Assembly (NCBI GenBank): GCA_030737835.1
Contig: CM060847.1
Coordinates: forward strand, 23,670,876-23,734,875
Direction: 5' to 3'
DNA: 64,000 nt
From: Acorus gramineus
Lineage: Eukaryota; Streptophyta; Magnoliopsida; Acorales; Acoraceae
In this document: positions 743-62,640 of the stretch, in pieces
Layout of the letters: every line of letters starts with the position of its first letter
Numbering within the stretch: position 1 is the stretch's first letter
Translations under genes and position numbers: made by a program
Notes under the pieces: generated by a model
What the model was told of the DNA's origin: nothing
What the model saw: only the letters and a program-made list of their open reading frames with translations
Database searches by the model: none

Positions 743-2175
743 ATATTATGAGATTCAACATTCAAAGCAGTAGTAGATATGGAGGAAGAACATTCAAACA
801 TAATATTCAACTTAAACAAACCATCACACACATAGCCTTTCCCAACGAAGGTTTCAAACCTAGTTATTACAACCTTATTTGCTTCAAAAACTAGTTTATA
901 ACCTTGCTGTATCAACAGCGACCCACTAACTAAGTTTTTCCTCAAATCAGGAACATGTTGCACGTTTTGAAGTGATAGGACATTTCCGGACGTGAAGAGT
1001 AGATCAACATGTCCTTCTCCAATGATACGTGCAGCAGAGTTGTTGCCCATTCTCACATGTCCATCAATGGCCTGATAGGAAGTAAATAAGGATCTATCAG
1101 AACAAAGGTGTACATTTGCTCCGGTGTCTATCCACCAATCAGTAGATTGACAAGCTAAGTTTAACTCAGGATGGACAGTGACAAACCTAATTTGGGAGGA
1201 AGAGGGTGCAGGGTCATGAATCACCACATTCGCTTGGACCTTATTCTCTGAGTCCTTCTGGGTAGGATGGTTGCTTTTATAATTCAGATTTTGAGGAAGG
1301 GTCTTTCGTTTGTAGCAACTTCTTGCAATATGCCCTTTCTTCCCACACACGTAGCAACCAGCTTCATCATTGGTTTTCTTTTTAAACTGTGGCTTTACAT
1401 GACCCTTAGCTGCCCCATTCTTTTTAAAAGGTTTGGACTTGGGTTTAAAACCTTCGGCTATGTGTGCTTTGGCAGAAAACTCTTTAGGAAGTTTAGAGAC
1501 CTTATCTTGAAGCCTATGCTCATCTTCTATCCTAATAGTGGTCAAAATATCATTCAAGACAGGTATACCTCTACGATGTTTAAGTTTGATAGCAAAATTA
1601 GACCAGGAGGGAGGCAATTTTTCAATAATGGAGTATGCAAGAAAGGTGTCATCAAGAATCATCCCATATTTTCTAATCTCATGAATAATAGTTTTCAGGT
1701 CTACGATTTGTTTCATGATAGACAGATTATCAACCATGTTAAATTTTAAAAATTTTCCGACAGCATATTTTTCTAACCCAGCATCTTCAAGACTATATTT
1801 TTTTTCGAGTTCTGTCCACAGTTCAAAAGTGCATTTTGTAGTACAAAAAATATCATACAACTCAGGGGTTAAGGCACTCAAGATTCGACCATGGCACAAG
1901 AAATCTTTCTCTTCCCAGGCACCGTCTAATTCAATAGTTTTTCCTTTCGGATCTGCTATTTTATCAGAATCGGCATCCTTGGGATCGGAGGTTTTGGTAA
2001 GGTCAATGGAAGTGGACTCTTTATCAGAAAGTGACTTGGATTCACCTAAGACAGTTCTTAAAACAGAAATTAATCCTAGGGTGGTGAGCCAATACCTACA
2101 TTGCTGCTGCCATCTTTTAAAATTGGTACCATCAAACAAAGCCGGTTTAGCAGATAAATCTTCTACAAGACCCAT
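718..2175 (-). pseudogene. Copia gag and protease, ending at a frameshift
   Basis: The predicted start is the Met of MGLVEDLSAKPALFDG; an upstream in-frame Met at 2223 lies in leader-like sequence. In order I see a Copia gag domain, a CCHC zinc knuckle (CYVCGKKGHIARSC), the protease motif WWIDTGANVH, and a GAG-pre-integrase segment ending HNMWHARLGH. A stop follows at 718-720. The expected continuation (NLSTIKRMMFLDL-like) lies in another frame, so a one-base loss or equivalent indel broke gag-pol here. The family packages element RNA (gag) and cleaves the polyprotein (Asp protease). The catalytic Asp is present. Confidence 0.85.
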
Positions 2176-2650
2176 TTTTGAAAACAGAAAGAGGTTTGAA
2201 AAAAAGGAATAGGTAAAATGCAACGCTTATTCACCGAGAATGTTATAAAATTCTTTTGTAAATCAGGGCAATGCAAAGAACCTAGTAAGGCCACAGATTC
2301 AAACCAATATAAAACACAGCAAATATTCTGCAAATAAGAACAGAGGATTAGAAAGCATATCAGTTTTGGTGGAAGCGAGCAGATGCGCTCTGTCCTCGGT
2401 GAATAAGGCCCCCCCACGCACAGGGTTGAACGGCTCCTACCACTGAGAGATACGACCACCAGGGTTATGCCTCCTCGGGGTGCGAGCTACGAGGAGACCA
2501 CAGTGAACAGGCGCGATCCTTTCAGACGCTCAGATCAGAGAACAAGAAAGCGGGAAGGACAGACTCCGATCAGGAACAAGAGAACAGTGGTTGCAGGTTA
2601 GGTGGGCTCTGGACTGATTTTGCTTATGAGAGAGAGACGTATTTGACACC

Positions 2651-41846: not shown

Positions 41847-44800
41847 ATGGTGGTGCTGTTGGGTTCTCTCTCTACAACTCCTCTTCACACTTCGTCAGTC
41901 CCAAAAATCTCCTCTTCTTCGAATTCTTCTTTCAAAAACAATGGGTTCTTCATTACTAGGCGCAATTCACTCATCCTCGCCTCCTCTTCGCTCCTCTCTT
42001 CCTCCTCTTCTCCCTCCACCAACCTCGCAACAGCCGCACAAGTAGCAGCAGAAGATGATGAAGAAGAGCGGGTCGTTCGCATCTTCCAAGTTGGTCCTCC
42101 CTCTCTTTCTCTCTCTGTGTCTATATAAAGATTGTTTCATTGGGTATCTGAAAAATTGGATTTTGAATCGAAATTTCCAGGTCGGTTTCATTCTATGTAA
42201 AGATTATTACATTGGGTCTTTGAAAGATTGCCTTTTTGATTGAGATTTCACTGCCCATTGAAGCATAGGTGAGTAAAAACGTGAGCTTTTGTTGTTGCAG
42301 GAGACGAGTCCGTCGGTGGTCTACATAGAGGACCTTGAATTGTTGAAAAGTGCGAAGGGCGCGACCACAGAGGAGGAGGATGCGAAGGTCGAGGGCACGG
42401 GATCCGGCTTCATATGGGACAAGTTTGGGCACATTGTATGCTCTGTGTGTATATATGTATATGCATTTCTCTTCTTTTTCTCAGATTTTAGTTCTTGCAA
42501 TTGAATTGAGTAATCCAATCAGTATGGGTGAGATGGTATGTGTGCATTTAGTTTGATGGGTCTTCTCCATTCATCATGCATTTCGAAGGATTGCCCTTTA
42601 TAGTGAAACACTTGATTTAAACAAATGGTGGACCTACTCTTAGGGCTAGTTTGGAAACCCTTATCGTTCTCCTTTTGCTGGAGCACCCAGATAAATGATG
42701 TCTGGAATTCTTCACTCGTGTGGTTATTCCTGAATGACCCACGCAAAATTTCCTGAATGACTTCTTTTTATAGAATCTATCAGAATTGGTGGACAAAACA
42801 ACTCTGTATCTCTTCTGTGACGCCATCTAGGAGGGGATGACATCATGATTCACTTGATGAAAGGTTATCATAGATAGTGGTGCCTGGGATTGAGAGGATT
42901 TCAACATCCCAAACTGATTTCTAGTTTTAAGTGTCCGGGGATCAGCACATACATTCTGTGTCAATCTGTAAAAAATCTGCTGAAATTACATTCTAGTGTG
43001 AAAATGTGTTCTAGTTTTTGATAATGAACTCTGCCTATGAGAGAATGCCAAAAGCTTCTTGTACCAGCTTCTCTAACATTTCGCGAATAGTTGTTTATAA
43101 CTGGTCACCTCCAACCAACCAGGAAGAACGTGAGGCAGCGTATTTTGATAGGCACTCCTAAGTTGCATGAGTTTGCATTTTTTTTCCTTTACTTTTTTTC
43201 CTTTTTGGTCGATGTTCATTAATTAAAGCTGAGGTACAACATTGAAATCTTTTTGGGATTAGACACTTAATCCATTCAAAATTGGTTATGTTATGTCTTT
43301 AACCTCATTTTCATGTATTTATTTGTTTCAGGTGACTAATTACCATGTCATTTCAAAATTGGCTACAGATATGACGGGTCGCCAGCGTTGCAGGGTTTGT
43401 GCTTCGTTTACCTTCGGAAATTAGCACCACATATTCATCTTTATTAGAACATAATTTTTTTACCAGTCTACTACATTTCAATTCAGGTTTATTTCGAAGA
43501 TGTCAATGGAAGTATCTTTCCCATGGACGCAAAACTGATTGGCTTTGATCCAGCTTATGATCTTGCTGTTCTTAAGGTAACTAAACGGTTGCCTTCATGA
43601 ACCTGAAATTACTCAACCCTACTAATCGAGTTTTGGAAATGGTTACTACATGGAAAGAATGGGCACAGGTTGATGTTGGGGGAGATAAAATAAAACCTGC
43701 CACCATTGGTACATCTCGTGATCTTCGTGTGGGCCAAAGCTGTTTTTCCATTGGTAACCCTTATGGATATGAGCACACTCTTACTACAGGGGTAAGTTCT
43801 CTTGAATATGAATCATATCGATATTGTTTTGTAGATTTTCTCTGATTTGAAGTAACTTGGCCAAAATGTTCTTTGTTATCTTCATAACTGACTTATGGTG
43901 GTTGGTTATAGATCAATTTGCTTCCAATGTTTTCTTGGGATGGGAAATTCATTAATGTTTTTACTCCTTAGTTCATTTACAATACAACACTTCTCTTGGA
44001 GGTTTCACTTTCCTAGGCCTTTAGCAATTCTACAAAGGCAGATAGAACTCTTTCAGGGGCGTGTATCTAGCTTCCGAAGCACCGGGAAAGTGCAGACGTA
44101 AACTCTAATAATCGTTGGGTTCTGTTTGATCTCTTTACCCTACCTAATGGTCGCCTCGCTACCGAACTGAAGTGGAATCCTATGGTTCCTTAGATTCAAT
44201 AAAGGTTGAAAGAATTCCCATCAATCGTCAACTCACAATCTGACGTAGTCGGAAGCGCGAAACGCTGCGAGAAACAAGACGAAGACGAACAACGTCGACT
44301 CCGTAAAACCCTTTCCGTAGGACGGAAGAAGGAATAAAAGAAACAGCTCTCAAAATAATTAGAAAACTCAAAATATTATTAATTGATTATTTGCACAACC
44401 CCTTGACTTGATTAAATAGGGTGATGTGACTTGCAAAACAAGAAAACCTAAGGAAAAAAAAAGAAAAATACAGAAATTCGGATCCCTATAATGGAGCTAC
44501 TAAAACACCATTAAAACTTACTAAAATAGCTCCTAAAATATTATATATTGCTCCTAAATTAATACCCAATTAATAGGTAATTAAATGTGACTAAAAATAT
44601 TCAAAATAGATTCATAATCATGAAGAAATCAATGTAAATTTGATTCTCCTAATTATGAGCATTAATTGTTTCATATTTTACATCACATTAATTGTTTCCT
44701 TTTTTTTTTTAACTTTCATTCCCCAATAATGGTTGATTTTCTTGTCAAATCTTCTTGCATCAGTCCCCTCCACTTGTAGAGAACTTGTCCTCAAGTTCGT

Positions 44801-47800
44801 AGCCATTGCTATATCCTCCTCTTTGAATGTTTTAAAGTGTCGCTTGTCAATTTTCGTTGCTCTAAACTTTGCATTGGACTCCTCATGTTGTTCTTCATCC
44901 ATGGATTCTTTCACAAAATCCTTAATGGAAAGAAAAGAGTGTCTCTCCACTTTTAAAGCTTTGAGAGATTTCTCATCCTTCATAGTAACAATAGCAATGT
45001 TTCTAGTGTTGCATTTAGATGATTCATTTACCTTTGGTGTGCATATCAACCGCTGAACCAGAAGAGATTCTCCTGGAGGACATATAGCTAGAACCTCTTC
45101 CTTCAGATCTCCATCTTCCTCATCATCACCAGCATACTTGTGATAGTTGGCATCCTCTTCTGCGACATCCTTGCTTAGTGCTAGATTCATGGTACGACGA
45201 TATCTTTGAGGACATTGGTTGGATCGATGCCCTTGTTCTCCACATCGATAACAAATGATCCTCTGCTCGAACTGGGACGCATAAGGATCCCTTCGATTCA
45301 CCGTATGAGCCATTGTGGTTGACGATGTAACTTCATCACCATGTCCTTTTCCTTGTTCCAGGAACGTTTGGGTTGGCTGGTTTGTTCCAATACTCGGAAT
45401 CAGAGTAGTCTTGTCAAACGATGCCGTCGAGATTTGAATTTTTTTTACAATATCTTGGCCATACATTGAACTTCTCATAATTGAACGACTATGAAGTATT
45501 TCCACCCTCTCCGCCATCTTCACCGCATCTGATAATGTCCAAATAGGGTGCAAAGACACCAAATCATAGATCGTCGGCTTTAACCCACCAATGTAACGAG
45601 CCACCCGTTGCGCCTCTGTTTCTACGATGTCGTTGCGAGACGACAATCGATAAAACTCTTCTGTATAGTCCCTCACAGCCCTATTGCCTTGGCGGCAATT
45701 TTGGTATTGTTGGAACAAAATTTGATCATAGTCGACTGGGAGAAATCGTAGACGAAGAAGCTGCTTCATACGGTACCATGTCTGAATTGGACGCTTTCCC
45801 ATCCTGGTGCGAGACAATTGAAGTTGTTCCCACCACGCTAATGCCCCGCCTTTAAGCTTGATTGCTACAAGCTTCAATTTCTTTGCGTCAGGCACCTCCC
45901 TATAGTCGAAGAAGCGTTCGACTGCCGCAAGCCAATCGAGAAAATCCTCGATGTGAAGTTGGCCGTTGAATTCGGGCAAATCGACCTTCACCCAGAAGTC
46001 GCGGGTACGATCCGTAGCCTGCGGTCGTTTATAAACACCACGCGCATGTCTGGAATTGAGAAACTCATCGAGTTCCTCTTTGGAAAAGTCATCCTTGTTG
46101 TGTTGAGGGACTTGAGGATTTTGAGTCCTCCGTGGAACAGTTTCATCGACCACCGGACGCTCCCGATCTTGACGAACTGTCACATGCTCCATCACCTCCG
46201 TCAGCCGTTGAACGGCAGCCTCTAATGCTTGAAACTGCTCGGGAGTGACGAGGTTTTGGTTTCCTTGTTCTCCTTCCGTTGCCATGAAGTGTAGCCGTAG
46301 CTCTGATACCACTTGTCGTAGTCGGAAGTGCGAAACGCTGTGAGAAATAAGACGAAGACGAACAACGTCGACTCCGTAAAACCCTTTCCGTAGGACGTAA
46401 GAAGGAATAAAAGAAACAACTCTCAAAATAATTAGAAAACTCAAAATATTATTAATTGATTATTTGCACAACCCCTTGACTTGATTAAATAGGGTGATGT
46501 GACTTGCAAAACAAGAAAACCTAAGGAAAAAAAAAAAAAATACAGAAATTCGGATCCCTATAATGGAACCAATAAAACACCATTAAAACTTACTAAAATA
46601 GCTCCTAAAATATTATATATTGCTCCTAAATTAATACCCAATTAATAGGTAATTAAATGTGACTAAAAATATTCAAAATAGATTCATAATCATGAAGAAA
46701 TCAATGTAAATTTGATTCTCCTAATTATGAGCATTAATTGTTTCATATTTTATATCACATTAATTGTTTCCTTTTTTTTTAACTTTCCTTCCCCAATAAT
46801 GGTTGATTTTCTTGTCAAATCTTCCTGCATCACAATCATAGCAAAGTTTGAGTACATACCACTCACTCTCATTACTTCCTTTGGTTGACTCGTCCTCTTT
46901 CTTCCTCCCGTTGGTCGCCTTCTTCTTTAATTACAACTTTCCGGCATACGTTTTCCATTTGCCATGCCTAAAAGTCAGACCTAATATGAGCTTGAGCTGG
47001 CAATGTCAGATTGATAATTTCCTTGCCTCATTCGACTAATACCTGAAAGCAGATGATGACGTTGATTTCCTCTTTTGTTTGTGTCCGGCAACTCGTACAC
47101 CTTATCCACACTATACTTTTAGGAATTGTAAGCCGTGCAGAGGATATTTTTCATGTTGAAAATATATTTCGTCATCCTGACTTGTGATTTTATATTATGA
47201 CTGCCAAGGCCTCGTTTGGAAGTTGGAACCAATTTTCAGAAACAATTTTGTCGATAAAAGCTTCTCTCAACCTGTTCTTTTTTTGATAAAAACTGTTTTG
47301 TTAACTTTTAATACATAAAAATCAAAATCCGAAACCAAATGCTAAAGTTTAAAAAACTATTAGGAACTGATTATTTGAAAACTGATTTTATAGAAGCAAA
47401 ATCAGTTTGACAATTGGTTTCAAATGGGGCCTTAGAACCAAATAAAATGATTGACGGGTTTGGAGCTTGTGTGTGTGAGAGAGTACTAATTCAGAGGCTT
47501 CTCATTTCTTATTTTTTCCATGCATTCCAAGTTCACAACCTCAAGGTCGCTTGTGGAATAGCCATTTTTTCCCTGTCTAATATTGACCAGTAAGCAGTAA
47601 GGATGTGTGTTGACTAGGAAGGTTGGTTCAAGACATCAATTGTTGACATCAGAAGATCTAAATTGTTTATTAGCTGTTATTCTTTGTTTTACATGACATG
47701 CCAAAACTTCTCTGCATTCACTAAGCTGCAGATTTTGGAATCACTAGACAAATCAAATAATGCTTTTCATTAACTCATTTCATAGCCAATGCACTGCAGC

Positions 47801-49074
47801 CTTGCACATATCAACTCGCATCTTGCACTTTCGGATGGATGAAATCGTAGTCTACGAGTTCTTGAATGTGAAAGTCAATCCTTTTAAAATGTTGGGTACT
47901 TATTACTGGAATTTATGAGAGTTCTAACTAAATTTTATCAACTGGTGAAGGTTGTGAGCGGCTTGGGCAGGGAGATACCTTCACCAAATGGAATGGCGAT
48001 TCGAGGAGCTATACAAACCGATGCTGCTATTAATTCTGGTAAAGAAAAAAGTCTTGTAATGACCTGATCTCCGCTTTTTGAGCCTCTACATATAACGTTT
48101 AGTACACCCAGGTATTAAAACATGGTTTTCAACTCAAGTATTTCCAATATTTGGTCCATGTTTGCTCATAATTCATGGGTAATAATACATTAACAACAAA
48201 ACAATAAACATATTCAGCACTTATTGGCATATCTTATGGTATCTTTTGGAGGCTTTAAATCTTGTGTTAAAACCATCATGTCTCTGCATGAGTGGCAAAG
48301 AATGAGAATTACAGCTGAACAAGCAGATTTTGATCCTCTCTATTCATATTGGAAAATGTTGCACTTAGTCATTCCTACAGTCCTTTTTTGCAGATCAATA
48401 ATGCTTTGAATTTTTTCAAGTATATACGTGACTAATGTACACGCTTTCACAAATAGTGAAGTACATACTCAATTAATTGAATACATACAGTTTCATGTGT
48501 ATATACTAACATAGTAGAGTATATGTTCTATTAAATATTTCACATACCGTGTTAGATGATGTGGCATCTGTGGAAGTGTGTGCATAAGTGTCAAGTGTAT
48601 TAGCGCCCATTCATATTTCGTGTGCATTGTGACAATTTACACGCACTTGGATTTGAAGCACATTCAATGTATTATTTGTTTTTGAATACCAACTTCTATA
48701 TTCATCCTCATATTAAATTCACGCATCGATCTTTGTTACAGGCAACTCAGGAGGTCCCTTGATCGACTCGCATGGGCATGTCATTGGAGTTAACACAGCC
48801 ACATTCACTCGCAAAGGTACCCATCTGCTTAAAATTTAAATCATGAGATTTATTACAAAAAAAGAAAAAAGAAAAAAAGAAGAAGAAAGTCTCAGATTTC
48901 CTGATCAAAACCAGTTGATCCTCTCAACCATGAAAACTTCTTTAAAATTGTGACTTTTAACGAACAGGGACCGGCGTATCATCCGGTGTCAACTTTGCGA
49001 TACCCATCGATACCGTTGTCCGGATGGTCCCTTATCTGATTGTCTATGGAACTGATGTCAACAATAGATTCTGA
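41847..49074 (+). CDS. DEG5: DEG5-like serine protease, chloroplast thylakoid lumen, eight exons
   Basis: Exons are 41847-42089, 42301-42435, 43332-43394, 43487-43576, 43669-43791, 47951-48038, 48742-48816 and 48968-49074 (924 bp, 307 residues). The trypsin-like Deg/HtrA domain has the catalytic triad H131 (TNYHVI), D172 (YDLAVLK) and S250 (GNSGGP). There is no PDZ domain, as known for DEG5; it ends VPYLIVYGTDVNNRF. The N-terminus is Ser-rich, with a twin-Arg ITRRNSLILASSSLL signal that fits Tat-dependent lumen import. Arabidopsis DEG5 pairs with DEG8 in repair of photosystem II D1 protein. The start at 41847 is chosen because the upstream ATG at 41818 is out of frame. Intron 5 is 4.16 kb because of a retrotransposon. 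Confidence 0.95.
44678..46285 (-). CDS. Ty3-type Gag polyprotein, complete frame without pol
   Basis: The first Met after the primer site gives 535 residues starting MATEGEQGNQ; an upstream Met at 46444 lies within the LTR and is unlikely. It has a retrotransposon-gag (capsid) domain with VDLPEFNGQLHIEDFLDWL, ALAWWEQLQ and FYRLSSRNDIVETEAQRVAR, then a CCHC knuckle CYRCGEQGHRSNQC. After an acidic linker the pre-protease block CPPGESLLVQRLICTP appears, but no DSG protease motif follows. The tail instead includes NLRTSSLQVEGTDARR, resembling the end of a full Ty3 polyprotein, so pol seems to have been deleted in frame. The frame's last residues run into the LTR. It could assemble particles but needs a helper for copying. 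Confidence 0.88.
   Translation of the reverse strand: MATEGEQGNQNLVTPEQFQALEAAVQRLTEVMEHVTVRQDRERPVVDETVPRRTQNPQVPQHNKDDFSKEELDEFLNSRHARGVYKRPQATDRTRDFWVKVDLPEFNGQLHIEDFLDWLAAVERFFDYREVPDAKKLKLVAIKLKGGALAWWEQLQLSRTRMGKRPIQTWYRMKQLLRLRFLPVDYDQILFQQYQNCRQGNRAVRDYTEEFYRLSSRNDIVETEAQRVARYIGGLKPTIYDLVSLHPIWTLSDAVKMAERVEILHSRSIMRSSMYGQDIVKKIQISTASFDKTTLIPSIGTNQPTQTFLEQGKGHGDEVTSSTTMAHTVNRRDPYASQFEQRIICYRCGEQGHRSNQCPQRYRRTMNLALSKDVAEEDANYHKYAGDDEEDGDLKEEVLAICPPGESLLVQRLICTPKVNESSKCNTRNIAIVTMKDEKSLKALKVERHSFLSIKDFVKESMDEEQHEESNAKFRATKIDKRHFKTFKEEDIAMATNLRTSSLQVEGTDARRFDKKINHYWGMKVKKKKETINVM
46301..46312 (-). promoter_or_regulatory. Primer binding site (tRNA-iMet) of the gag-only element
   Basis: The minus strand reads TGGTATCAGAGC, the standard match to the 3' end of initiator tRNA-Met, one base inside the 5' LTR. 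Confidence 0.95.
47206..47433. mobile_element. Probable MITE in DEG5 intron 5
   Basis: The ends AAGGCCTCGTTTGG and, reversed, AAGGCCCCATTTGAAACC are inverted, and both continue into ACCAATT plus CAG-type motifs. The 228-bp interior holds AAAACTGATTTT-like text. No exact target duplication is visible. Confidence 0.6.
48039..48741 (+). other. DEG5 intron 6
   Basis: This 703-bp intron has a GT-AG pair and contains AT-rich ATACATACAG-type text around 48420-48560 that may be transposon-derived. No gene is seen. Confidence 0.5.
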
Positions 49075-49380
49075 TGTCACTTGTAGATGAAGAACTACTC
49101 ATAAGGTTTGATTATAGCCTCCCTATCTGCAGTTTTACTTTTAATTTGGTTGGCGGGTCTCTTCTGATTATTTCCCAAGGGAAAATGATATGTCCAGTGG
49201 CTGTGTGTAGCCCCATTCGCGGTCTTCATTGATTTTCCATTTTTTTGAATATATATTCACCCATTGAAGTATATGCTGTTATAAGCGAAATATTTACTAA
49301 GATATACTAGTGTATTTACTTCTTTGAAAAAACGAAAAAAAAATAATTCATACATGCGTTTTGCATTGTCAGATTGTATA
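49075..49380 (+). other. DEG5 3' UTR region
   Basis: Positions 49230-49360 hold another dispersed-repeat copy (TATACTAGTGTATTT motif, also at 6240-6290 and 40680-40740). The GST tandem array begins immediately after, at about 49381. Confidence 0.55.
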
Positions 49381-49395
49381 TGTGGCTGAGGGGAT

Positions 49396-49525
49396 GGGAT
49401 TGTCTATAACACACTACATGCTTCTCCCTGTAACAGTCTCTTATCGGTAAGAGTTTACACGAGGAGATAATATATTGGTCATAGGGAGAAGCTTGTAGTG
49501 TGTTGTGTTACAGACGATCCGATTC
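49396..49525. repeat. Hairpin at the start of GST unit 1
   Basis: GATTGTCTATAACACACTAC and the later GTAGTGTGTTGTGTTACAGA are imperfect reverse complements that continue through GCTTCTCCC and GGGAGAAGC. The arms are about 30 bp with an about 65-bp loop. Copies begin units 2 and 3 also. Confidence 0.75.
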
Positions 49526-50154
49526 CGTGGTTGGGGACCCCTTCTAAACTACAGATGGGGATACAAAATAAACTGAGTGTATTAATGCTCTTTTCCAAGC
49601 GATTAGCATGTAAGGTCAGATCACCTGTTATGGGCTATGGGGGACTCTATGGCTAGCCTAGTGGTACGCCCCGATGATATGTTGATATTTTATCCAATGA
49701 TCGTGATTGACTTCCAAGGCCCCCCACCAATTTTTTTTTATTTCTAAAGCATTGAATCTCAATTAAAATAGAAAAAAAGCCTCTCAATCATTAATTATAA
49801 AACAAACTTTTTATATATTTCTCTATCAAATTAGAAGCCCCCTTCAAAAAATTCATGACAACTCAACTGTATAAAAGTTTCTCAACCATTAAAATTAATC
49901 AAAGATGTGATTTTCTCTTCTCTAAATAAATATTTAAAATAAAAGGAGATAAAAAATTAAATTTTCTCCTTTTTAAAAAAACCACTAGTCCTCTCTCCCA
50001 AAATATCAAATGGTCTCAAATTTCTCATTCGGCCAATATTTTTTATCTATATTCTTTTTAGAGCGTTGATTCACTTAGTCCGTTTTGCAGTTCCACGCAA
50101 TATGATAACATAGTATATACTGTGCCATTATAATGTATGGAGTTTTATCACAGT

Positions 50155-50372
50155 TAGAGGTGTAAAACGAGCCGTGTTGGCACGGCACGACACGTTAAGG
50201 TTTATGGGCCGTGCCGGACCAGCCTTATGGCAGGTGGGCTGTTTTCGGCACGGCATGTTAATGAGCACGGCACGATAGGCACGGCACGACACGACAATTC
50301 ACAGTAGACGGAGCATATAATATGTTGAATACGTGTTTTATCTCATTGTTTTATCAAGTATATATAATGTTT

Positions 50373-50404
<32 letters not shown>

Positions 50405-50643
50405 AAATACATTTATATAATTTTTGTGTGTATAATATTAAGAAAAGTAAAGTTTAGAATTAAAAAAATAAAAAAATCTATATTTTTAAAATTCATGGGC
50501 TGGCCTGCTAGTCTCGTGAGCGGTCCGTTGGCCCGGCGGGTTAGGCACGGCACGGCCCATCAAAGTTAGCGGGCCGGCACGTCACGGCCTGCTAGCCCGC
50601 TTCCTAACTAGGCAGGGCTGACCCGGCCCGTTTTACACATCTA
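50155..50643. mobile_element. Non-autonomous derivative of the TAGAGGTGT hAT family, unit 1
   Basis: It begins TAGAGGTGTAAAACGAGCC and ends CCCGTTTTACACATCTA, the same termini as the full element at 17712-21357. ATCACAGT precedes it and ATCACACA follows, an imperfect 8-bp duplication. Inside are GGCACGGCACGACACG repeats and a TG/TA microsatellite (50376-50403). Confidence 0.85.
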
Positions 50644-50673
50644 ATCACACAGTGTATGACATAATCTTTTTAA

Positions 50674-51774
50674 GGGAAAAATGTATATAGCCCCCCTGAG
50701 AAATCGGCTAAATCCAAATAACCCCCTCTAAAATTGATATATCCGTATAACACCCTGTAATTTGCCATGAAATTCAAACAAACCCCTCAGGTCAAACTCT
50801 GTTAATAGAATCAGAATATTCTATGGAATATTCCGTTAACTCATCCATTACCTGGAATTGTATATCCAAAGAACCCCTCCAAAAATTAACAAAATCCAAA
50901 AACACCCTTATAAATGACCAAACTACCTGAAATTATGTTTTTGACCTCGTCGTCTTCTCCAACGGTGAGAATCTCAATCGTTTGATCTGGCCCAGCCTAT
51001 ACAAGCTACAAACAAATTACATTTTCTCAATTTTTGCAACATCAGTTGGTGGATCTCATTCGAACGGACCATTTCATCAACCTTTCCATTTTGTTTGTGT
51101 TCATCAAGCTTCAAGAGTAGCTTTGCTTCTTCAAGCTTTCCACTTTGTTTGTGTTCTTTGTCCCTCAATTTTCTTGCCTAATCCAAGACTAACATTGTGT
51201 GTTCAACATCAATTTTGGACCATATCTATAAATTTCATTGTGCATAACTGCATATGATATGTTTGATAAAATGTCTCAAACATTTGTCGGGCACCACCTG
51301 TACGAATAAATCTCGCAGACTTTCAAAACAAAATAAAACGATATGTTGAGGTGCAAGGAGGAGGAGGAGACTTTGTTGAAGGTATAAGGAGGAGGAGACT
51401 TCGTCGGCGCTAGGGGAAGGGATTTCATCAACATCAAGGTGAAGAGAACTCATTAGCGTCGGGGGAAGAGACGCACGCCGCCGAGGTGGGGGGATAGACG
51501 CACGCCGTCACGGGTTGGTTAAGGTTTACTTGTGTGTTGTGTTTTTCGCTGGGTGGGGGTGAGATTGAAGGGAAATAGATTTGGTAGGGTTGAGGGCATG
51601 GTTGTAATTCTTCATGTGTGGTTTAACTTAACTATACATTGGGTTAAAAGGGGGTAATGGTAGGGGGTTTTCTGAATTTCATGACAAATTACAGGGTGTT
51701 ATATGGATATATCAATTTTAGAGGGGGTTATCTGGATTTAGCCGATTTCTTAGGGGGTTATATACATTTTTTCC
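50674..51774. mobile_element. Mutator-like foldback with about 110-bp inverted ends, unit 1
   Basis: The left arm starts GGGAAAAATGTATATAGCCC and continues ACCCCCTCTAAAATTGATAT; the right arm is its inverse. The flanks TCTTTTTAA and TTTTTTTAA form a 9-bp duplication with one mismatch. The terminal style matches the 16976 element. The interior has non-repeat, partly GC-rich sequence, including a minus-strand start ATGAGTTCTCTTCACC, which may be captured from a gene. Confidence 0.82.
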
Positions 51775-52055
51775 TTTTTTTAATCATTTTTTCAATACGA
51801 AAAAATACATTATTGTATCTCTGTACTTAATTTCATATAACAACATGTACTTCAATGTGAGATGAAAATGTATGATTTTTTTTAAACAAGTCATATATCG
51901 ACACTTGCCTTGAGTAATTTCATGTATGGCTCTCATTGGTCCAGGCCATTAATTTCCAGATGTTGACATGTTGTTAAATATTCAACAATGGAAGGCGCAG
52001 CAGATGTGGAAATATTTATCCATCTCCCATCAAGGACAACAAGTCCTAATAAAGC

Positions 52056-52064
52056 ATATATATA
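52056..52064 (+). promoter_or_regulatory. TATA-like element of GST unit 1
   Basis: ATATATATA lies about 65 bp before the GST start codon. The same sequence precedes the genes in units 2 and 3. Confidence 0.45.
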
Positions 52065-52124
52065 TTGTCCAGACTACTACATGCTCAATTGTTCTTTCTG
52101 CTCAGGTTTTTCCAGAGTTGTAAA

Positions 52125-53285
52125 ATGGCTGTTGTTGTTGGAGAAGTAGTGAAGGTCCATGGGATGTGGCTGAGTCCTTTTGCACTTCGAGTGGAGTGGG
52201 CTCTGAAGCTGAAGGGGATCGAATACGAGTACATCGACGAGGACCTGTCGAACAAGACTCCCCAACTCTTGCACTTCAATCCAGTCTACAAGAAGATCCC
52301 AGTCCTGGTTCACGGTGGAAAACCGATCCCGGAGTCCCTCATCATCATCGAATACATCGATGAGGTTTGGAAGCACATTAACCCTCTCTTCGCTCATGAT
52401 CCCTATGAGAAAGCCATGGCTCGCTTTTGGGCTAGATATTCGGACGACAAGGTAGTATCACCACATACATCTATCTTGGGTCCTTAATTTTTTTTATTTT
52501 TATTTTTTGAAAAAACCGAACATATGGCTAACATTAACAAGACCTGAAACATTACTAAAGTACCCATGATATCTCTCAGTCACCTCACGTGCACAGGCAT
52601 TTTCATCATAGAAAAGGATTAAATATGATTTTCTAAAGTTTGTAGGGACGCAATCTAATTTTAGTATGTTTCGGGGGATTTATTTTAATATAATTTAATT
52701 AAGTCATGTTACCATTACGGAATATTCGACGAATATTCCCAAAAAACTGATGATAATTTGATCGGAGGATTAAATTCGTTAACCATATATGTTTTCTTGG
52801 GACTTAGAGTGATTTTCTGGTTTTCCACGAATGATTTCAGGAAGTTAAAATGATTTTTTTCTTTTTTTGTATTAGTAATAATTGATGTGATATTGATGAT
52901 GATGCAACATCTTAATAAAAAAAAAAAAACGTGACAGTGCACACCTGCGTTGTTAAAAGCATTCTCTACTGTCGGAGAGACGCAGAAGGGGGCGATAGAA
53001 GAAGCTAAGGAATGCTTGAGGACCCTAGAAGGGGGACTCAAGGGGCGCAAGTTCTTTGGCGGAGAGACGATCGGGTTCGTGGACATCGTCACGGGTTGGA
53101 TCGCTTACTGGGTGCCAATGATCGAGGAGATAATGGGCGTAACCATCGTCGATGAAGGGGAGCTGCCACTGATGCACGCATGGTTCCGGGACTACCTCCA
53201 GCTGGATGTGGTGAAGGAGAGGCTGCCACCCCGCGATAAAGTGCTTCAAAAGTTGAGGGATATCCAGAAACGTTTACTTGGCTAG
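52125..53285 (+). CDS. Tau-class glutathione S-transferase, unit 1, intact
   Basis: Exons 52125-52451 and 52938-53285 encode 224 residues, normal for tau GSTs. The N-terminal thioredoxin-like domain has [20 protein letters not shown] with the likely catalytic S17, the glutathione-contacting NPVYKKIPVL at 52-61 and PESL with E70/S71. The C-terminal helical domain has FFGGETIGFVDIV. The single intron after DDK is at the class-typical place. The Met at 52125 is chosen over one 60 bp upstream because homology begins there. Tau GSTs conjugate glutathione to xenobiotics and stress products in the cytosol. This copy has CTPALLKAF at the start of exon 2, the only clear protein difference from unit 2. 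Confidence 0.96.
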
Positions 53286-54270
53286 TCAGTTTAAGATTGC
53301 TTTTTTTTTTTTTTTTTTTGAGACTCAGAGCATATTCGGTAGTGTATGACTGCTAAGTACTCAAACAGTTGATCTTTCTGTAATAAATGATTGTGTGATG
53401 CATGTTATTTTAATTGTCTAGCTCGTTTGGCAGAAGAGTCGTACAACAATAAAAGTGACCTTATAATCAGGAGCCGCTCGTGTGGAGGATTTATTGTAAT
53501 GTGGCTGAGGGGATGGGATTGTCTATAACACACTACATGTTTCTCCCAGTAACAGTCTCTTATCGGTAAGAGTTTACATGAGGGGATAATATATTGGTCA
53601 TAGGGAGAAGCTTGTAGTGTGTTGTGTTACAGACAGTCCGATTCCGTGGTTGGGGACCCCTTCTATGGGGATATAAAATAAACTGAGTGTATTAATGCTC
53701 TTTTCCAAGTGATTAGCATGTAAGGTCAGATCACCTGTTATGGGCTATTGTGGACTCTATGGCTAGCCTGGTGGTACGCCCCGATGATCTGTTGATATTT
53801 TATCCAATGATCGTGATTGACTTCCATGGCCCCCCACCAATTTTTTTTATTTCTAAAGCATTGAATCTCAATTAAAATAGAAAAAAAAAAGCCTCTCAAT
53901 CATTAATTATAAAACAAACTTTTTATATATTTCTCTATCAAATTAGAAGCCCCCTTCAAAGAATTCATGACAACTCAACTGTATAAAAGTTTCTCAACCA
54001 TTAAAATTAATCAAAGATGTGATTTTCTCTTCTCTGAATAAATATTTAAAATAAAAGGAGATGATAAAAAAATTAAATTTTCTCCTTTTTAAAAAAACCA
54101 CTAGTCCTCTCTCCCAAAATATCAAATGGTCTCAAATTTCCCATTCGGCCAATATTTCTTATCTATATTCTTTTTAGAGCGTTGATCCACTTAGTCTGTT
54201 TTACAGTTTCACGCAATATGATAACATAGTATATACTGTGCCATTATAATATATGGAGTTCTATCACAAT

Positions 54271-54836
54271 TAGAGGTGTAAAACGGGCTGTGTCGGCACG
54301 GTACGAAGCTCGGCACGTTAAGAAATAGCCACGGCACGACACGTTAACGGCAAACACGTTAAGGTTTATGGGCCATGTCGGGCCAGCCTTATGGCACGTG
54401 GGCCGTTTTTGGCACGACATGGCACGACACGTTAAGGTTTATGGGCCGTGCCGGACCAGCCTTATGGCACGTGGGCCGTTTTTGGCACGACATGTTAATG
54501 AGCACGGCACGATAGGCACGGCACGACACGACAATTCACAGTAGACGGGGCATATAATATGTTGAATACGTGCCTTATCTTATTGTTTTATCAAGTATAT
54601 ATAATGTTTTTGCGTGTATATATATATATATAATACATTTATATAATTTTTGTGTGTATAATATTAAGAAAAGTAAAGTTTAGAATTAAAAAAATAAAAA
54701 AATCTATTTTTTAAAAATTCATGGGCTGGCCCGCTAGTCCCGTAAGCGGCCCGTTGGCACGGCACGGCCCATCAAAGTTAACGGGCCGGCATGTCACGGC
54801 CCGCTTCTTAATCGGCCCGGCCCGTTTACACATCTA
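54271..54836. mobile_element. Non-autonomous TAGAGGTGT hAT derivative, unit 2
   Basis: Same termini as the unit 1 copy and inserted at the same site, so it was duplicated with the unit and not inserted anew. It contains a second GTTAAGGTTTATGGGCC repeat block missing from unit 1. Confidence 0.85.
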
Positions 54837-54864
54837 ATCACAGGGTATGACGTAATTTTTTTAA

Positions 54865-55960
54865 GGGAAAAATGTATATAGCCCCTGAGAAATCGGCTAA
54901 ATCCAAATAACCCCCTCTAAAATTGATATATCCGTATAACACTCTGTAGTTTGTCATGAAATTCAAACAAACCCCTCAGGTCAAACTCTGTTAATAGAAT
55001 CAGAATATCCTATGGAATATTCCGTTAACTCATCCATTACCTGAAATTGTATATCCAAAGAACCCCTCCAAAAATTAACAAAATCCAAAAACACCCTTAT
55101 AAATGACCAAACTACCTGAAATTATGTTTCTGACCTCGTCGTCTTCTCCAACGGTGAGAATCTCAATCGTTTGATCTGGCCCAGCCTATACAAGCTACAA
55201 ATAAATTACATTTTCTCAATTTTTGCAACATCAGTTGGTGGATCTCATTCAAACGGACCGTTTCATCAACCTTTCCATTTTGTTTGTGTTCATCAAGCTT
55301 CAAAAGTAGTTTTGCTTCTTCAGGCTTTCCACTTTGTTTGTGTTCTTTGTCCCTCAATTTTCTTGCCTAATCCAAGACTAACATTGTGTGTTCAACATCA
55401 ATTTTGTACCATATCTATAAATTTCATTGTGCATAACTGCATATGATATGTTTGATAAAATGTCTCAAACATTTGTCGGGCACCACCTGTACGAATAAAT
55501 CTCGCAGACTTTCAAAACAAAATAAAACGATATGTTGAGGTGCGAGGAGGAGGAGACTTTGTTGAATGTATAAGGAGGAGGAGACTTCGTCGGCGCTAGG
55601 GGAAGGGATTTCATCAACATCAAGGTGAAGAGAACTCATTGGCGTCGGGGGAAGAGACGCACACCGCCGAGGTGGGGGGATAGACGCACGCCGTCACGGG
55701 TTGTTTAAGGTTTACCTGTGTGTTGTGTTTTTCGCTGGGTGGGGGTGAGATTGAAGGGAAATAGATTTGGTAGGGTTGAGGGCATGGTTGTAATTCTTCA
55801 TGTGTGGTTTAACTTAACTATACATTGGGTTAAAAGGGGGTAATGGTAGGGGGTTTTCTGAATTTCATGACAAATTACAGGGTGTTATATGGATATATCA
55901 ATTTTAGAGGGGGTTATGTGGATTTAGCCGATTTCTTAGGGGGTTATATACATTTTTTCC
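54865..55960. mobile_element. Mutator-like foldback, unit 2
   Basis: Homologous to 50674-51774 at the same relative position, with scattered substitutions and small indels. Confidence 0.8.
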
Positions 55961-56310
55961 TTTTTTTAATCATTTTTTCAATACGAAAAAATACATTATT
56001 GTATCTCTGTACTTAATTTCATATAACAACATGTACTTCAATGTGAGATGAAAATGTATGATTTTTTTTAAACAAGTCATATATCGACACTTGCCTTGAG
56101 TAATTTCATGTATGGCTCTCATTGGTCCAGGCCATTAATTTCCAGATGTTGACATGTTGTTAAATATTCAACAATGGAAGGCGCAGCAGATGTGGAAATA
56201 TTTATCCATCTCCCATCAAGGACAACAAGTCCTAATAAAGCATATATATATTGTCCAGACTACTACATGCTCAATTGTTCTTTCTGCTCAGGTTTTTCCA
56301 GAGTTGTAAA

Positions 56311-57470
56311 ATGGCTGTTGTTGTTGGAGAAGTAGTGAAGGTCCATGGGATGTGGCTGAGTCCTTTTGCACTTCGAGTGGAGTGGGCTCTGAAGCTGAAG
56401 GGGATCGAATACGAGTACATCGACGAGGACCTGTCGAACAAGACTCCCCAACTCTTGCACTTCAATCCAGTCTACAAGAAGATCCCAGTCCTGGTTCACG
56501 GTGGAAAACCGATCCCGGAGTCCCTCATCATCATCGAATACATCGATGAGGTTTGGAAGCACATTAACCCTCTCTTCGCTCATGATCCCTATGAGAAAGC
56601 CATGGCTCGCTTTTGGGCTAGATATTCGGACGACAAGGTAGTATCACCACATACATCTATCTTGGGTCCTTAATTTTTTTTATTTTTATTTTTTGAAAAA
56701 ACCGAACATATGGCTAACATTAACAAGACCTGAAACATTACTAAAGTACCCATGATATCTCTCAGTCACCTCACGTGCACAGGCATTTTCATCATAGAAA
56801 AGGATTAAATATGATTTTCTAAAGTTTGTAGGGACGCAATCTAATTTTAGTATGTTTCGGGGGATTTATTTTAATATAATTTAATTAAGTCATGTTACCA
56901 TTACGGAATATTCGACGAATATTTCCAAAAAATCGACGATAATTTGATCGGAGGATTAAATCAGTTAACCATATATATTTTCTTGGGACTTAGAGTGATT
57001 TTCTGGTTTTCCACGAATGATTTCAGGGAGTTAAAATGATTTTTTTCTTTTTTTGTATTAGTAATAATTGATGTGATATTGATGATGATGCAACATCTTA
57101 ATAAAAAAAAAAAACGTGACAGTGCACACCTGCGATTTTTAAAGTATTCTCTACTGTCGGAGAGACGCAGAAGGGGGCGATAGAAGAAGCTAAGGAATGC
57201 TTGAGGACCCTAGAAGGGGGACTCAAGGGGCGCAAGTTCTTTGGCGGAGAGACGATCGGGTTCGTGGACATCGTCACGGGTTGGATCGCTTACTGGGTGC
57301 CAATGATCGAGGAGATAATGGGCGTAACCATCGTCGATGAAGGGGAGCTGCCACTGATGCACGCATGGTTCCGGGACTACCTCCAGCTGGATGTGGTGAA
57401 GGAGAGGCTGCCACCCCGCGATAAAGTGCTTCAAAAGTTGAGGGATATCCAGAAACGTTTACTTGGCTAG
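56311..57470 (+). CDS. Tau-class glutathione S-transferase, unit 2, intact
   Basis: Exons 56311-56637 and 57123-57470 encode 224 residues. Exon 1 appears identical to unit 1 at the nucleotide level. Exon 2 begins CTPAIFKVF instead of CTPALLKAF; the rest of the protein is the same. S17, E70 and S71 are kept, so the enzyme should be active. The splice donor (CAAG|GTAGTA) and acceptor (GACAG|TGCACA) are unchanged. The altered exon-2 start is shared with the broken unit 3, which points to exchange between units. Confidence 0.95.
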
Positions 57471-58454
57471 TCAGTTTAAGATTGCTTTTTTTTTTTTTTT
57501 TTTTGAGACTCAGAGCATATTCGGTAGTGTATGACTGCTAAGTACTCAAACAGTTGATCTTTCTGTAATAAATGATTGTGTGATGCATGTTATTTTAATT
57601 GTCTAGCTCGTTTGGCAGAAGAGTCGTACAACAATAAAAGTGACCTTATAATCAGGAGCCGCTCGTGTGGAGGATTTATTGTAATGTGGCTGAGGGGATG
57701 GGATTGTCTATAACACACTACATGTTTCTCCCAGTAACAGTCTCTTATCGGTAAGAGTTTACATGAGGGGATAATATATTGGTCATAGGGAGAAGCTTGT
57801 AGTGTGTTGTGTTACAGACAGTCCGATTCCGTGGTTGGGGACCCCTTCTATGGGGATATAAAATAAACTGAGTGTATTAATGCTCTTTTCCAAGTGATTA
57901 GCATGTAAGGTCAGATCACCTGTTATGGGCTATTGTGGACTCTATGGCTAGCCTGGTGGTACGCCCCGATGATCTGTTGATATTTTATCCAATGATCGTG
58001 ATTGACTTCCATGGCCCCCCACCAATTTTTTTTATTTCTAAAGCATTGAATCTCAATTAAAATAGAAAAAAAAAGCCTCTCAATCATTAATTATAAAACA
58101 AACTTTTTATATATTTCTCTATCAAATTAGAAGCCCCCTTCAAAGAATTCATGACAACTCAACTGTATAAAAGTTTCTCAACCATTAAAATTAATCAAAG
58201 ATGTGATTTTCTCTTCTCTGAATAAATATTTAAAATAAAAGGAGATGATAAAAAAATTAAATTTTCTCCTTTTTAAAAAAACCACTAGTCCTCTCTCCCA
58301 AAATATCAAATGGTCTCAAATTTCCCATTCGGCCAATATTTCTTATCTATATTCTTTTTAGAGCGTTGATCCACTTAGTCTGTTTTACAGTTTCACGCAA
58401 TATGATAACATAGTATATACTGTGCCATTATAATATATGGAGTTCTATCACAAT

Positions 58455-59020
58455 TAGAGGTGTAAAACGGGCTGTGTCGGCACGGTACGAAGCTCGGCAC
58501 GTTAAGAAATAGCCACGGCACGACACGTTAACGGCAAACACGTTAAGGTTTATGGGCCATGTCGGGCCAGCCTTATGGCACGTGGGCCGTTTTTGGCACG
58601 ACATGGCACGACACGTTAAGGTTTATGGGCCGTGCCGGACCAGCCTTATGGCACGTGGGCCGTTTTTGGCACGACATGTTAATGAGCACGGCACGATAGG
58701 CACGGCACGACACGACAATTCACAGTAGACGGGGCATATAATATGTTGAATACGTGCCTTATCTTATTGTTTTATCAAGTATATATAATGTTTTTGCGTG
58801 TATATATATATATATAATACATTTATATAATTTTTGTGTGTATAATATTAAGAAAAGTAAAGTTTAGAATTAAAAAAATAAAAAAATCTATTTTTTAAAA
58901 ATTCATGGGCTGGCCCGCTAGTCCCGTAAGCGGCCCGTTGGCACGGCACGGCCCATCAAAGTTAACGGGCCGGCATGTCACGGCCCGCTTCTTAATCGGC
59001 CCGGCCCGTTTACACATCTA
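58455..59020. mobile_element. Non-autonomous TAGAGGTGT hAT derivative, unit 3
   Basis: The 566-bp copy is essentially the same as in unit 2, with the same insertion point. Confidence 0.85.
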
Positions 59021-59048
59021 ATCACAGGGTATGACGTAATTTTTTTAA

Positions 59049-60119
59049 GGGAAAAATGTATATAGCCCCTGAGAAATCGGCTAAATCCAAATAACCCCCT
59101 CTAAAATTGATATATCCGTATAACACTCTGTAGTTTGTCATGAAATTCAAACAAACCCCTCAGGTCAAACTCTGTTAATAGAATCAGAATATCCTATGGA
59201 ATATTCCGTTAACTCATCCATTACCTGAAATTGTATATCCAAAGAACCCCTCCAAAAATTAACAAAATCCAAAAACACCCTTATAAATGACCAAACTACC
59301 TGAAATTATGTTTCTGACCTCGTCGTCTTCTCCAACGGTGAGAATCTCAATCGTTTGATCTGGCCCAGCCTATACAAGCTACAAATAAATTACATTTTCT
59401 CAATTTTTGCAACATCAGTTGGTGGATCTCATTCAAACGGACCGTTTCATCAACCTTTCCATTTTGTTTGTGTTCATCAAGCTTCAAAAGTAGTTTTGCT
59501 TCTTCAGGCTTTCCACTTTGTTTGTGTTCTTTGTCCCTCAATTTTCTTGCCTAATCCAAGACTAACATTGTGTGTTCAACATCAATTTTGTACCATATCT
59601 ATAAATTTCATTGTGCATAACTGCATATGATATGTTTGATAAAATGTCTCAAACATTTGTCGGGCACCACCTGTACGAATAAATCTCGCAGACTTTCAAA
59701 CAAAATAAAACGATATGTTGAGGTGCAAGGAGGAGGAGGAGACTTTGTTGAAGGTATAAGGAGGAGGAGACTTCGTCGGCGCTAGGGGAAGGGATTTCAT
59801 CAACATCAAGGTGAAGAGAACTCATTAGCGTCGGGGGAAGAGACGCACGCCGTCACGGGTTGGTTAAGGTTTACTTGTGTGTTGTGTTTTTCGCTGGGTG
59901 GGGGTGAGATTGAAGGGAAATAGATTTGGTAGGGTTGAGGGCATGGTTGTAATTCTTCATGTGTGGTTTAACTTAACTATACATTGGGTTAAAAGGGGGT
60001 ACTGGTAGGGGGTTTTCTGAATTTCATGACAAATTACAGGGTGTTATATGGATATATCAATTTTAGAGGGGGTTATGTGGATTTAGCCGATTTCTTAGGG
60101 GGTTATATACATTTTTTCC
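59049..60119. mobile_element. Mutator-like foldback, unit 3
   Basis: The left part follows unit 2, while the right part (from about 59700) follows unit 1. A block between two GACGCACGCCG repeats has been lost by simple recombination, shortening it to 1071 bp. Confidence 0.8.
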
Positions 60120-61485
60120 TTTTTTTAATCATTTTTTCAATACGAAAAAATACATTATTGTATCTCTGTACTTAATTTCATATAACAACATGTACTTCAA
60201 TGTGAGATGAAAATGTATGATTTTTTTTAAACAAGTCATATATCGACACTTGCCTTGAGTAATTTCATGTATGGCTCTCATTGGTCCAGGCCATTAATTT
60301 CCAGATGTTGACATGTTGTTAAATATTCAACAATGGAAGGCGCAGCAGATGTGGAAATATTTATCCATCTCCCATCAAGGACAACAAGTCCTAATAAAGC
60401 ATATATATATTGTCCAGACTACTACATGCTCAATTGTTCTTTCTGCTCAGGTTTTTCCAGAGTTGTAAAATGGCTGTTGTTGTTGGAGAAGTAGTGAAGG
60501 TCCATGGGATGTGGCTGAGTCCTTTTGCACTTCGAGTGGAGTGGGCTCTGAAGCTGAAGGGGATCGAATACGAGTACATCGACGAGGACCTGTCGAACAA
60601 GACTCCCCAGTCCTGGTTCACGGTGGAAAACCGATCCCGGAGTCCCTCATCATCATCGAATACATCGATGAGGTTTGGAAGCACATTAACCCTCTCTTCG
60701 CTCATGATCCCTATGAGAAAGCCATGGCTCGCTTTTGGGCTAGATATTCGGACGACAAGGTAGTATCACCACATACATCTATCTTGGGTCCTCAATTTTT
60801 TTTATTTTTTTATTTTGAAAAAACCGAACATACGGCTAACATTAACTAGACCTGAAACATTACTAAAGTACCCATGATATCTCTCACTCACCTCACCTGC
60901 ACAGGTATTTTTATCATAGAAAAGGATTAAATATGATTTTTTAAAGTTTGTAGGGACGGAATTTGATTTTAGTATGTTTCGGGGGATTTATTTCAATATA
61001 ATTTGATTCAGTCATGTTACCGTTACGGAATATTCGACGAATATTCCAAAAAAACTGACGATAATTTGATCGGAGGATTAAATCCGTTAACCATATATGT
61101 TTTCTTGGAACCTAGAGTGATTTTTTGGTTTTCCACGAATGATTTCAAGGAGTTAAAATGATTTTTTTTTCTTTTTTGTATTAGTAATAATTGATGTGAT
61201 ATTGATGATGATGCAACATCTTAACAAAAAAAAAAACGTGACAGTGCACACCTGCGATTTTTAAAGTATTCTCTACTGTCGGAGAGACGCAAAAGGGGGC
61301 GATAGAAGAAGCTAAGGAATGCTTGAGGACCCTAGAAGGGGGACTCAAGGGGCGCAAGTTCTTTGGCGGAGAGACGATCGGGTTCGTGGACATCGTCACG
61401 GGTTGGATCGCTTACTGGGTGCCAATGATCGAGGAGATAACGGGCGTAACCATTGTCGATGAAGGGGAGCTGCCACTGTTGCACG

Positions 61486-62243
61486 CAGGGCTGGTCCTGA
61501 GATAAGAAAATCTAGGTGGGGCCCTAGGCCAACTCAAAAAATGAGGCCCTATATATGTATATTGAAATTTTTGAGTTAATGTTTTAATCATGTTAGTAAT
61601 AAAAAGATCAAGACTAAGCAAAAAAACTCATCGAGTTCTTCTTTAAAAAGAAAAAAAAATCATAAAAATAAGATCATTTCTTTTATAGAAAATAAATAAA
61701 TAACTATAAACTAGAGTATACTAAAAATATATTAAATATATAAAGATACAAATGAAATTTTTTAAAAATAAAAAAAAAATACTTTTCATAATGATGCCAA
61801 CAAATATTATATTTTCAAATAAAACTTATAAATTTAAATTTAAAATATATAGGAAGACATATTCAAGTTATTTTTTAAAAAAATTTAATTTTAGAGTGTT
61901 GTTACACATAGTTTTTATTCCAGCCTCAATTCCAGTCTCATATGCGTCGATGGAAAATTATCAAAGCGCATACTGACCTTAGCAATGCATATATGCTATT
62001 TATTAGAGGTATATGCTTCACTTATTGTAAAAACATGTACCTTATTAGATGATGTATACTATTTTAAAAAAATTCAAAACACTTTCAAATTGAATTTAGG
62101 GCTACAAAATGGACTGGATGTAAAATTATTATTAAGTTTAATTTCAAAAGTCTAATATATAAAAAAATCTTAGATTTAGGGCCCTCTTTGAAGAAGGGGT
62201 CCTAGGCGGTCGCCTACCAGGCCTATAGTCAGGGCCGGCCATG
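61486..62243. mobile_element. hAT-type insertion in exon 2 of the unit 3 GST
   Basis: The ends CAGGGCTGGTCCTGA and, reversed, CATGGCCGGCCCTGA are 15-bp inverted repeats with three mismatches. GTTGCACG is duplicated at 61478-61485 and 62244-62251. The 758-bp element has no transposase and contains a nested copy of the TATATGCGTCGAT-core family (about 61897-62135). Confidence 0.9.
61897..62135. repeat. Dispersed MITE-like family (TATATGCGTCGAT core), copy C
   Basis: It starts GAGTGTTGTTACACATAG, contains TCTCATATGCGTCGATGG and ends near TGGACTGGATGTAAAATTAT. It is nested in the hAT-type insertion. Confidence 0.65.
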
Positions 62244-62640
62244 GTTGCACGCATGGTTCCGGGACTACCTCCAGCTGGATGTGGTGAAGGAGAGGCTGCC
62301 ACCCCGTGATAAACTGCTTCAAATGTTGAGGGATTTCCAGAAACGTTTACTTGGCTAGTCAGTTTAAGATTGCTTTTTTTTTTTTTTTTTTGTTGAGACT
62401 CAGAACTCAAATCTATATATTAAAAAGGGGTATATATCTCTATCATCTTGTTAAGAGCATAGTGGGTAGTGTATGACTGTTAAGAGCATCTTGTTAATAA
62501 ATGATTGTTATTTTAATTGTCTAGCTCGTTTGGCAGAAGAGTCGTACAACAATTAAGGACCTCCTGAAAACTCACATAAAAGTGACCTTATAATCAGGAG
62601 ATTGTTGAAACCCACCGTCTTTTTTAAGATAAAGGATTTA

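Follow-up and report, generated by a model that had tools for sequence, protein, structure and literature searches.

A gag-only Ty3 retrotransposon family in Acorus gramineus and its candidate full-length partner

We analyzed a stretch of 64,000 nucleotides of Acorus gramineus DNA (the window), which carries a 2,592-bp long terminal repeat (LTR) retrotransposon on its minus strand at positions 44241-46832. This element very probably belongs to a spreading family of gag-only Ty3 elements of the TR-GAG type, a type reportedly treated by Chaparro et al. in 2015. Other copies sharing the same internal junctions lie at separate sites in the genome, and stretches of their 5' parts are mosaic with those of full-length elements, one type of which is a candidate partner. 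The ends of the element in the window are as follows.

46314..46832, minus strand: 5' LTR, 519 bp, TGATGC...CGACA
44241..44762, minus strand: 3' LTR, 522 bp, TGATGC...CGTCA
44236..44240, no strand: left target site duplication (TSD), CAATC, 5 bp
46833..46837, no strand: right TSD, CAATC, 5 bp
46300..46311, minus strand: primer-binding site (PBS) TGGTATCAGAGC, 2 bases internal to the 5' LTR
44763..44775, minus strand: polypurine tract (PPT) AAGTGGAGGGGAC, adjoining the 3' LTR

The alignment of the two LTRs and inspection of the ends bore out the paired LTRs with few differences, the PBS, the PPT, and the CAATC duplication described in an earlier reading made from the letters alone (the sequence-only reading). 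The LTRs differed by 8 transitions, 4 transversions, and 2 gap events over 519 aligned columns, giving a Kimura two-parameter (K2P) distance of 0.0235; three of the differences were clustered within 5 bp (simulated P of 0.026). With 1.3e-8 or 7e-9 substitutions per site and year, this distance corresponds to about 0.9 or 1.7 million years, respectively, so that the word "recent" in that reading holds as a relative term only. We take TGGTATCAGAGC to be a PBS of the initiator methionine tRNA type, matching the plant initiator tRNA; its 12 bases were identical in 8 of the 12 two-LTR gag-only copies described below. The element thus has the two LTRs, PBS, and PPT of a TR-GAG element.

Between the LTRs lies a single long coding frame.

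44678..46285, minus strand: gag frame, ATG at 46285, 535 codons plus stop, with about the last 27 codons within the 3' LTR
45482..45979, minus strand: Ty3-type capsid domain, residues 103-268 (Pfam)
45206..45256, minus strand: CCHC zinc knuckle, residues 344-360 (Pfam)

The internal region spans 1,551 bp and has one frame open for 516 codons, the maximum in 2,000 Markov shuffles being 226, and the coding frame stops about 82 bases into the 3' LTR. Its product matched Retrotrans_gag (4.5e-16), Ty3_capsid (3.4e-8), and zf-CCHC (3.7e-6), while no protease, reverse transcriptase (RT), or integrase domain was found in it by Pfam, as the sequence-only reading had stated, and no RNase H domain either; the tail of Gag searched alone gave no meaningful Pfam match (the best was DUF1284, 0.055). 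A single gag-domain frame lacking RT, RNase H, and integrase is the coding content of TR-GAG elements, and the 535-codon frame sets the element apart from terminal-repeat retrotransposons in miniature and large retrotransposon derivatives, which have no coding domain.

The 398.6-Mb assembly (137 contigs) was then searched with the LTR (40 matches scored of 120 candidates) and with Gag (89 rows from 81 scored of 3,462 candidates), so that all counts are lower bounds. By hand tally, at least 28 of the 89 Gag rows, the window included, started before residue 421 and reached residue 508 or beyond, that is, had gag joined to the tail. Twenty regions fetched around the LTR matches comprised 11 LTR-internal-LTR loci, 1 partial copy, 5 LTRs alone, and 3 loci of the full-length type. 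The internal region of the two-LTR gag-only copies (n = 12, the window included) measured 1,536 to 1,561 bp, and the insertions lay at separate sites, as in a multicopy TR-GAG family: 7 had a perfect 5-bp TSD, 3 had one with a single mismatch, 1 was unclear, and 1 was rearranged. The K2P distance between the LTRs of the 11 datable copies ranged from 0.018 to 0.077, that of the window element being the second lowest; L015, in which one LTR is inverted, gave no usable date and was counted for junctions and selection but excluded from the LTR-plus-gag alignments. No relatives of the window element were found in the viral_contigs, genome_contigs, or plasmids collections. L031 (G000:C10:3822300-3825300) is a gag-only copy that an inserted piece of about 0.83 kb interrupts close to internal position 1364-1369, and L019, L020, L023, L024, and L026, each with one LTR alone in a 9.9-kb stretch, are likely solo LTRs.

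Full-length relatives were present in the same genome. In one of them, L014, Pfam recognized gag, RT, RNase H, and integrase but gave no protease match, the protease DSG motif being read by eye; the L014 frame is broken once. Its LTRs did not differ at any of 485 compared columns, an alignment that left out about 22 bases where the LTR begins. A near-copy on C3 (called C3 below) was 98.6 to 99.2% identical to L014 over the pieces compared and had a 1,559-codon frame without stops and an LTR K2P distance of 0.0146. The Ty3-type gag and the position of RT-RNase H before integrase in the full-length relative (Pfam) place the family in Ty3 (Metaviridae). The sequence-only reading had asked for full-length partners with matching LTRs; full-length relatives are present, and in two of them the element's own LTRs differ little or not at all, but the close match to the gag-only LTRs is confined to the R-U5 half, U3 being about 28% diverged.

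The 5' LTR and gag of 11 gag-only copies were aligned with those of three full-length elements (L014, L025, and C3), L018 being excluded from the two-group comparisons as its gag is deleted.

46083..46473, minus strand: segment apparently exchanged with full-length elements, covering the LTR end, the PBS, and the first part of gag; bounds approximate

Over these approximately 390 bp of R-U5-PBS-5' gag, the gag-only and full-length elements were indistinguishable. The divergence between the groups was 0.28 in U3 (positions 1-225), with 40 fixed differences, and 0.29 in 3' gag (1351-1809), with 103, neither region having any shared polymorphism, while at 401-700 it was 0.066 to 0.071, compared with 0.076 to 0.079 within the gag-only group, with 0 fixed differences. 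The between-group minus within-gag-only divergence was -0.008 at 360-750 and 0.226, 0.059, and 0.202 elsewhere; fixed differences numbered 46 before and more than 100 after positions 356-838, where there were none. L014 and C3 differed at 11 of 391 sites in 360-750 but at only 6 of 1,373 elsewhere, and in the same segment the gag-only copy L017 had 13 of 391 differences from L014 and 26 of 391 from the window element. In L018, with its full-length-type pol, the gag stretch at 751-825 was 92% identical to the gag-only type versus 80% to the other.

The best reading of the mosaic 5' segment is template switching in particles that held both RNAs, which would in turn imply cross-mobilization of the gag-only family by an L014-type partner. 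Three points tell against it. A single clade of the three full-length rows in 360-750 was not rejected (approximately unbiased test, p-AU of 0.437); in the tree of 330-838 the full-length rows formed a weakly supported clade (72/66), nested in a strongly supported group that also contained the gag-only copy L028; and gene conversion at the DNA level could also shift 5' segments. That the similarity arose from chromosomal gene conversion, or from selection on packaging or priming signals, rather than from copackaging is in our judgment unlikely, although dispersed repeats do undergo conversion and the segment contains the LTR end, the PBS, and what is presumably the packaging region. Constraint alone fails to explain the similarity, because gag-only diversity is as high in the segment as elsewhere and near-identical full-length copies differ mostly there, while a defined 5' segment suits strand transfer better than conversion. 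Since those full-length copies differ mainly in 360-750 and nest there within the gag-only variation, a tentative extension of template switching is two-way traffic, in which full-length elements would repeatedly take R-U5-PBS-5' gag from the gag-only reservoir; we regard this as possible but favor it less than not.

Two loci bear further on mosaic structure. L018 (319-5111), of the full-length type but with a deletion in gag and a gag stretch resembling the gag-only type, is probably a recombinant. At G000:C5:13669112-13670377, Gag is 79 to 85% like that of the window element over the first half but 55% over the second, a possible mosaic.

We then compared the internal region of the gag-only form with L014, which gave four matching blocks (1-1290, 1304-1421, 1430-1496, and 1511-1551) separated by three losses.

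45010..45024, minus strand: junction J1; loss of 342 bp with the protease relative to full-length elements, the lost stretch being bounded by AACAACA repeats in L018 and L025
44893..45010, minus strand: retained pol island 1, linker between protease and RT, 79% identical to L014
44884..44893, minus strand: junction J2; loss of about 2.4 kb with RT, RNase H, and the integrase core
44818..44884, minus strand: retained pol island 2, integrase piece before the SH3 domain, 72% identical to L014
44803..44818, minus strand: junction J3; loss of about 0.2 kb with the SH3_Tf2-1 domain of integrase
44763..44803, minus strand: retained pol island 3, final pol residues and PPT, 85% identical to L014

The pol linkers between the losses stay in frame. 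The sequence-only reading had seen in the end of the gag frame a resemblance to the C terminus of a full pol, suggesting an internal deletion; the resemblance holds for the 16 residues that precede the LTR, while the single deletion is replaced by three separate in-frame losses. In L018, AACAACA repeats 342 bp apart bracket the protease stretch, and the same repeats are present in L025, L014 lacking three bases there; shared strings of 7 or more were obtained at random break pairs in 2 of 5,000 draws. J2 and J3 are less sharp than J1, J2 having a shared TGGAGG and extra bases.

The three losses, separated by short exon-like islands and all preserving the frame, would also fit an origin of the short form in which a spliced subgenomic gag RNA was reverse transcribed, the missing stretches being introns; shGAG isoforms are known in plants (PMC9784723), and J2 has an AG|GT-like donor. 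We consider this origin improbable. A spliced product at J2 was not matched by eye, and the direct repeat at the ends of J1 suits slippage or illegitimate recombination. At J1, where the script test was made, splicing was rejected: wherever in the 7-bp repeat the break is put, GT...AG does not result. The sequence-only reading had further proposed a genome search for copies with the same pol junctions, a single such copy pointing to a one-off deletion. Many were found: all three junction neighborhoods align in 12 of 12 two-LTR gag-only copies. Although the window itself holds a single copy, an internal deletion in it after insertion of a full-length element is thereby refuted and has next to no probability left, because the junctions are common to copies at separate sites with their own TSDs.

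To assess selection on Gag, we calculated the ratio of nonsynonymous to synonymous substitution rates (dN/dS), which was 0.25 over 415 codons between the window element and L014, a value that mixes both lineages, 0.42 between the window element and L012, and 0.72 between it and L017. Stop codons made up 0 of 99 shared variants and 15 of 237 single ones (p of 0.007). Between two gag-only subgroups, the fixed differences were 5 nonsynonymous and 6 synonymous, fewer nonsynonymous ones than under neutrality (p of 0.017, the grouping having been chosen after the LTR ends were seen). Other observations are less favorable to a working Gag. The ratio of nonsynonymous to synonymous changes, stops counted among the former, was 59:40 in shared and 159:78 in single variants, which was not a significant difference (p of 0.21), and the evidence for purifying selection acting on Gag inside the family is weak. 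Only 2 of the 12 inspected copies, the window element and L012, have a stop-free internal region, most gag frames being broken; the longer protein match of L012 has one TAA, and its PBS is damaged. Taken together, these data are modest evidence that Gag probably remained functional in those copies that spread. The intact frame in the window might suggest a gag co-opted as a host gene, but the chance of this is negligible, as gag sits between LTRs in an intron and has many sister copies, 10 of the 12 inspected being broken.

From these data we propose the following course of events. An ancestor related to the L014 full-length lineage would have gone through up to three in-frame steps in which the protease, RT-RNase H-integrase, and the SH3 domain of integrase were lost; what was left would be the LTRs, PBS, PPT, and a Gag whose tail is pieced together from pol linkers. 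The gag-only RNA would be packaged with full-length RNA, possibly in mixed-Gag particles containing the family's own Gag; the partner's RT would copy it, and the partner's integrase would insert the product with a 5-bp duplication. The sequence-only reading had assumed an active Ty3 element elsewhere as the source of the enzymes; we infer the same, now with the L014-type element as candidate supplier and with mosaic sequences behind it.

The host gene on the plus strand was recognized from hand-joined exon peptides, whose best match was 4ic5, "Protease Do-like 5, chloroplastic" (2.1e-61); this match and the intron bounds agree with the earlier placement of the element antisense within DEG5.

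43792..47950, plus strand: DEG5 intron holding the element, GT...AG

Elsewhere in the window, a unit of about 4.18 kb is present downstream of DEG5 in three tandem copies (49373-62404), about 94 to 98% identical over most of their length. An intact hAT-type transposase frame of 701 codons with BED finger, RNase H-like, and dimerization domains lies at 18586-20691 (plus strand), and a Copia-type gag-pol remnant at 50-2223 (minus strand; Retrotran_gag_2 and Pol_BBD in 721-2223).

TR-GAG is a named class of gag-only LTR elements (PMC6022998), with which the Acorus family shares two LTRs around a single gag frame, the absence of RT and integrase, and multiple copies; a candidate partner identified by sequence and a tail made of three pol islands are described here. 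The closest parallel among the systems compared is RLG_Quinta/RLG_Cereba of wheat (PMC11302176), likewise a gag-only and autonomous pair with matching PBS and LTR ends and inferred template-switch recombination. The wheat pair, however, is centromeric and has an extra domain, DUF1, and recombination in wheat swaps gag between two Quinta lineages rather than R-U5-PBS-5' gag between gag-only and full-length elements. AT5TE33540 (ATCOPIA63) of Arabidopsis is also gag-only with a full-length relative, but it is of the Ty1/copia type and its new insertion was seen in ddm1, while transposition of the Ty3-type family is inferred (PMC8704663). RLG_Sabrina, RLG_WHAM, and RLG_Wilma include gag-carrying "semi-autonomous" elements with an autonomous partner, but their homology is limited to a few motifs, and Sabrina_SA retains the protease (PMC9744471). 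In grass nonautonomous pararetroviruses, which are not LTR elements, region-specific recombination homogenizes the regulatory regions of defective and complete partners, the segments exchanged being noncoding (PMC5491270). Recombination during transposition bursts was already known (PMC5668417). No report of a TR-GAG 5' segment common with a helper was met in a literature search that was weak on subscription journals.

Because the gag-only class, the movement of one such element, and partner recombination in wheat have already been described, the Acorus elements are a further family of a known class, with direct evidence, from sequence, for a candidate partner. The loss of the protease, RT-integrase, and the SH3 domain with the linkers kept in frame shows how a gag-only family can start. 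Which element supplies the enzymes is an open question for gag-only elements, and it is testable here because a candidate helper and recombinants between the two types occur together in one genome. If the two-way traffic is real, the gag-only family would renew the front end of its helper, perhaps supplying extra Gag as well, and would not be just a parasite.

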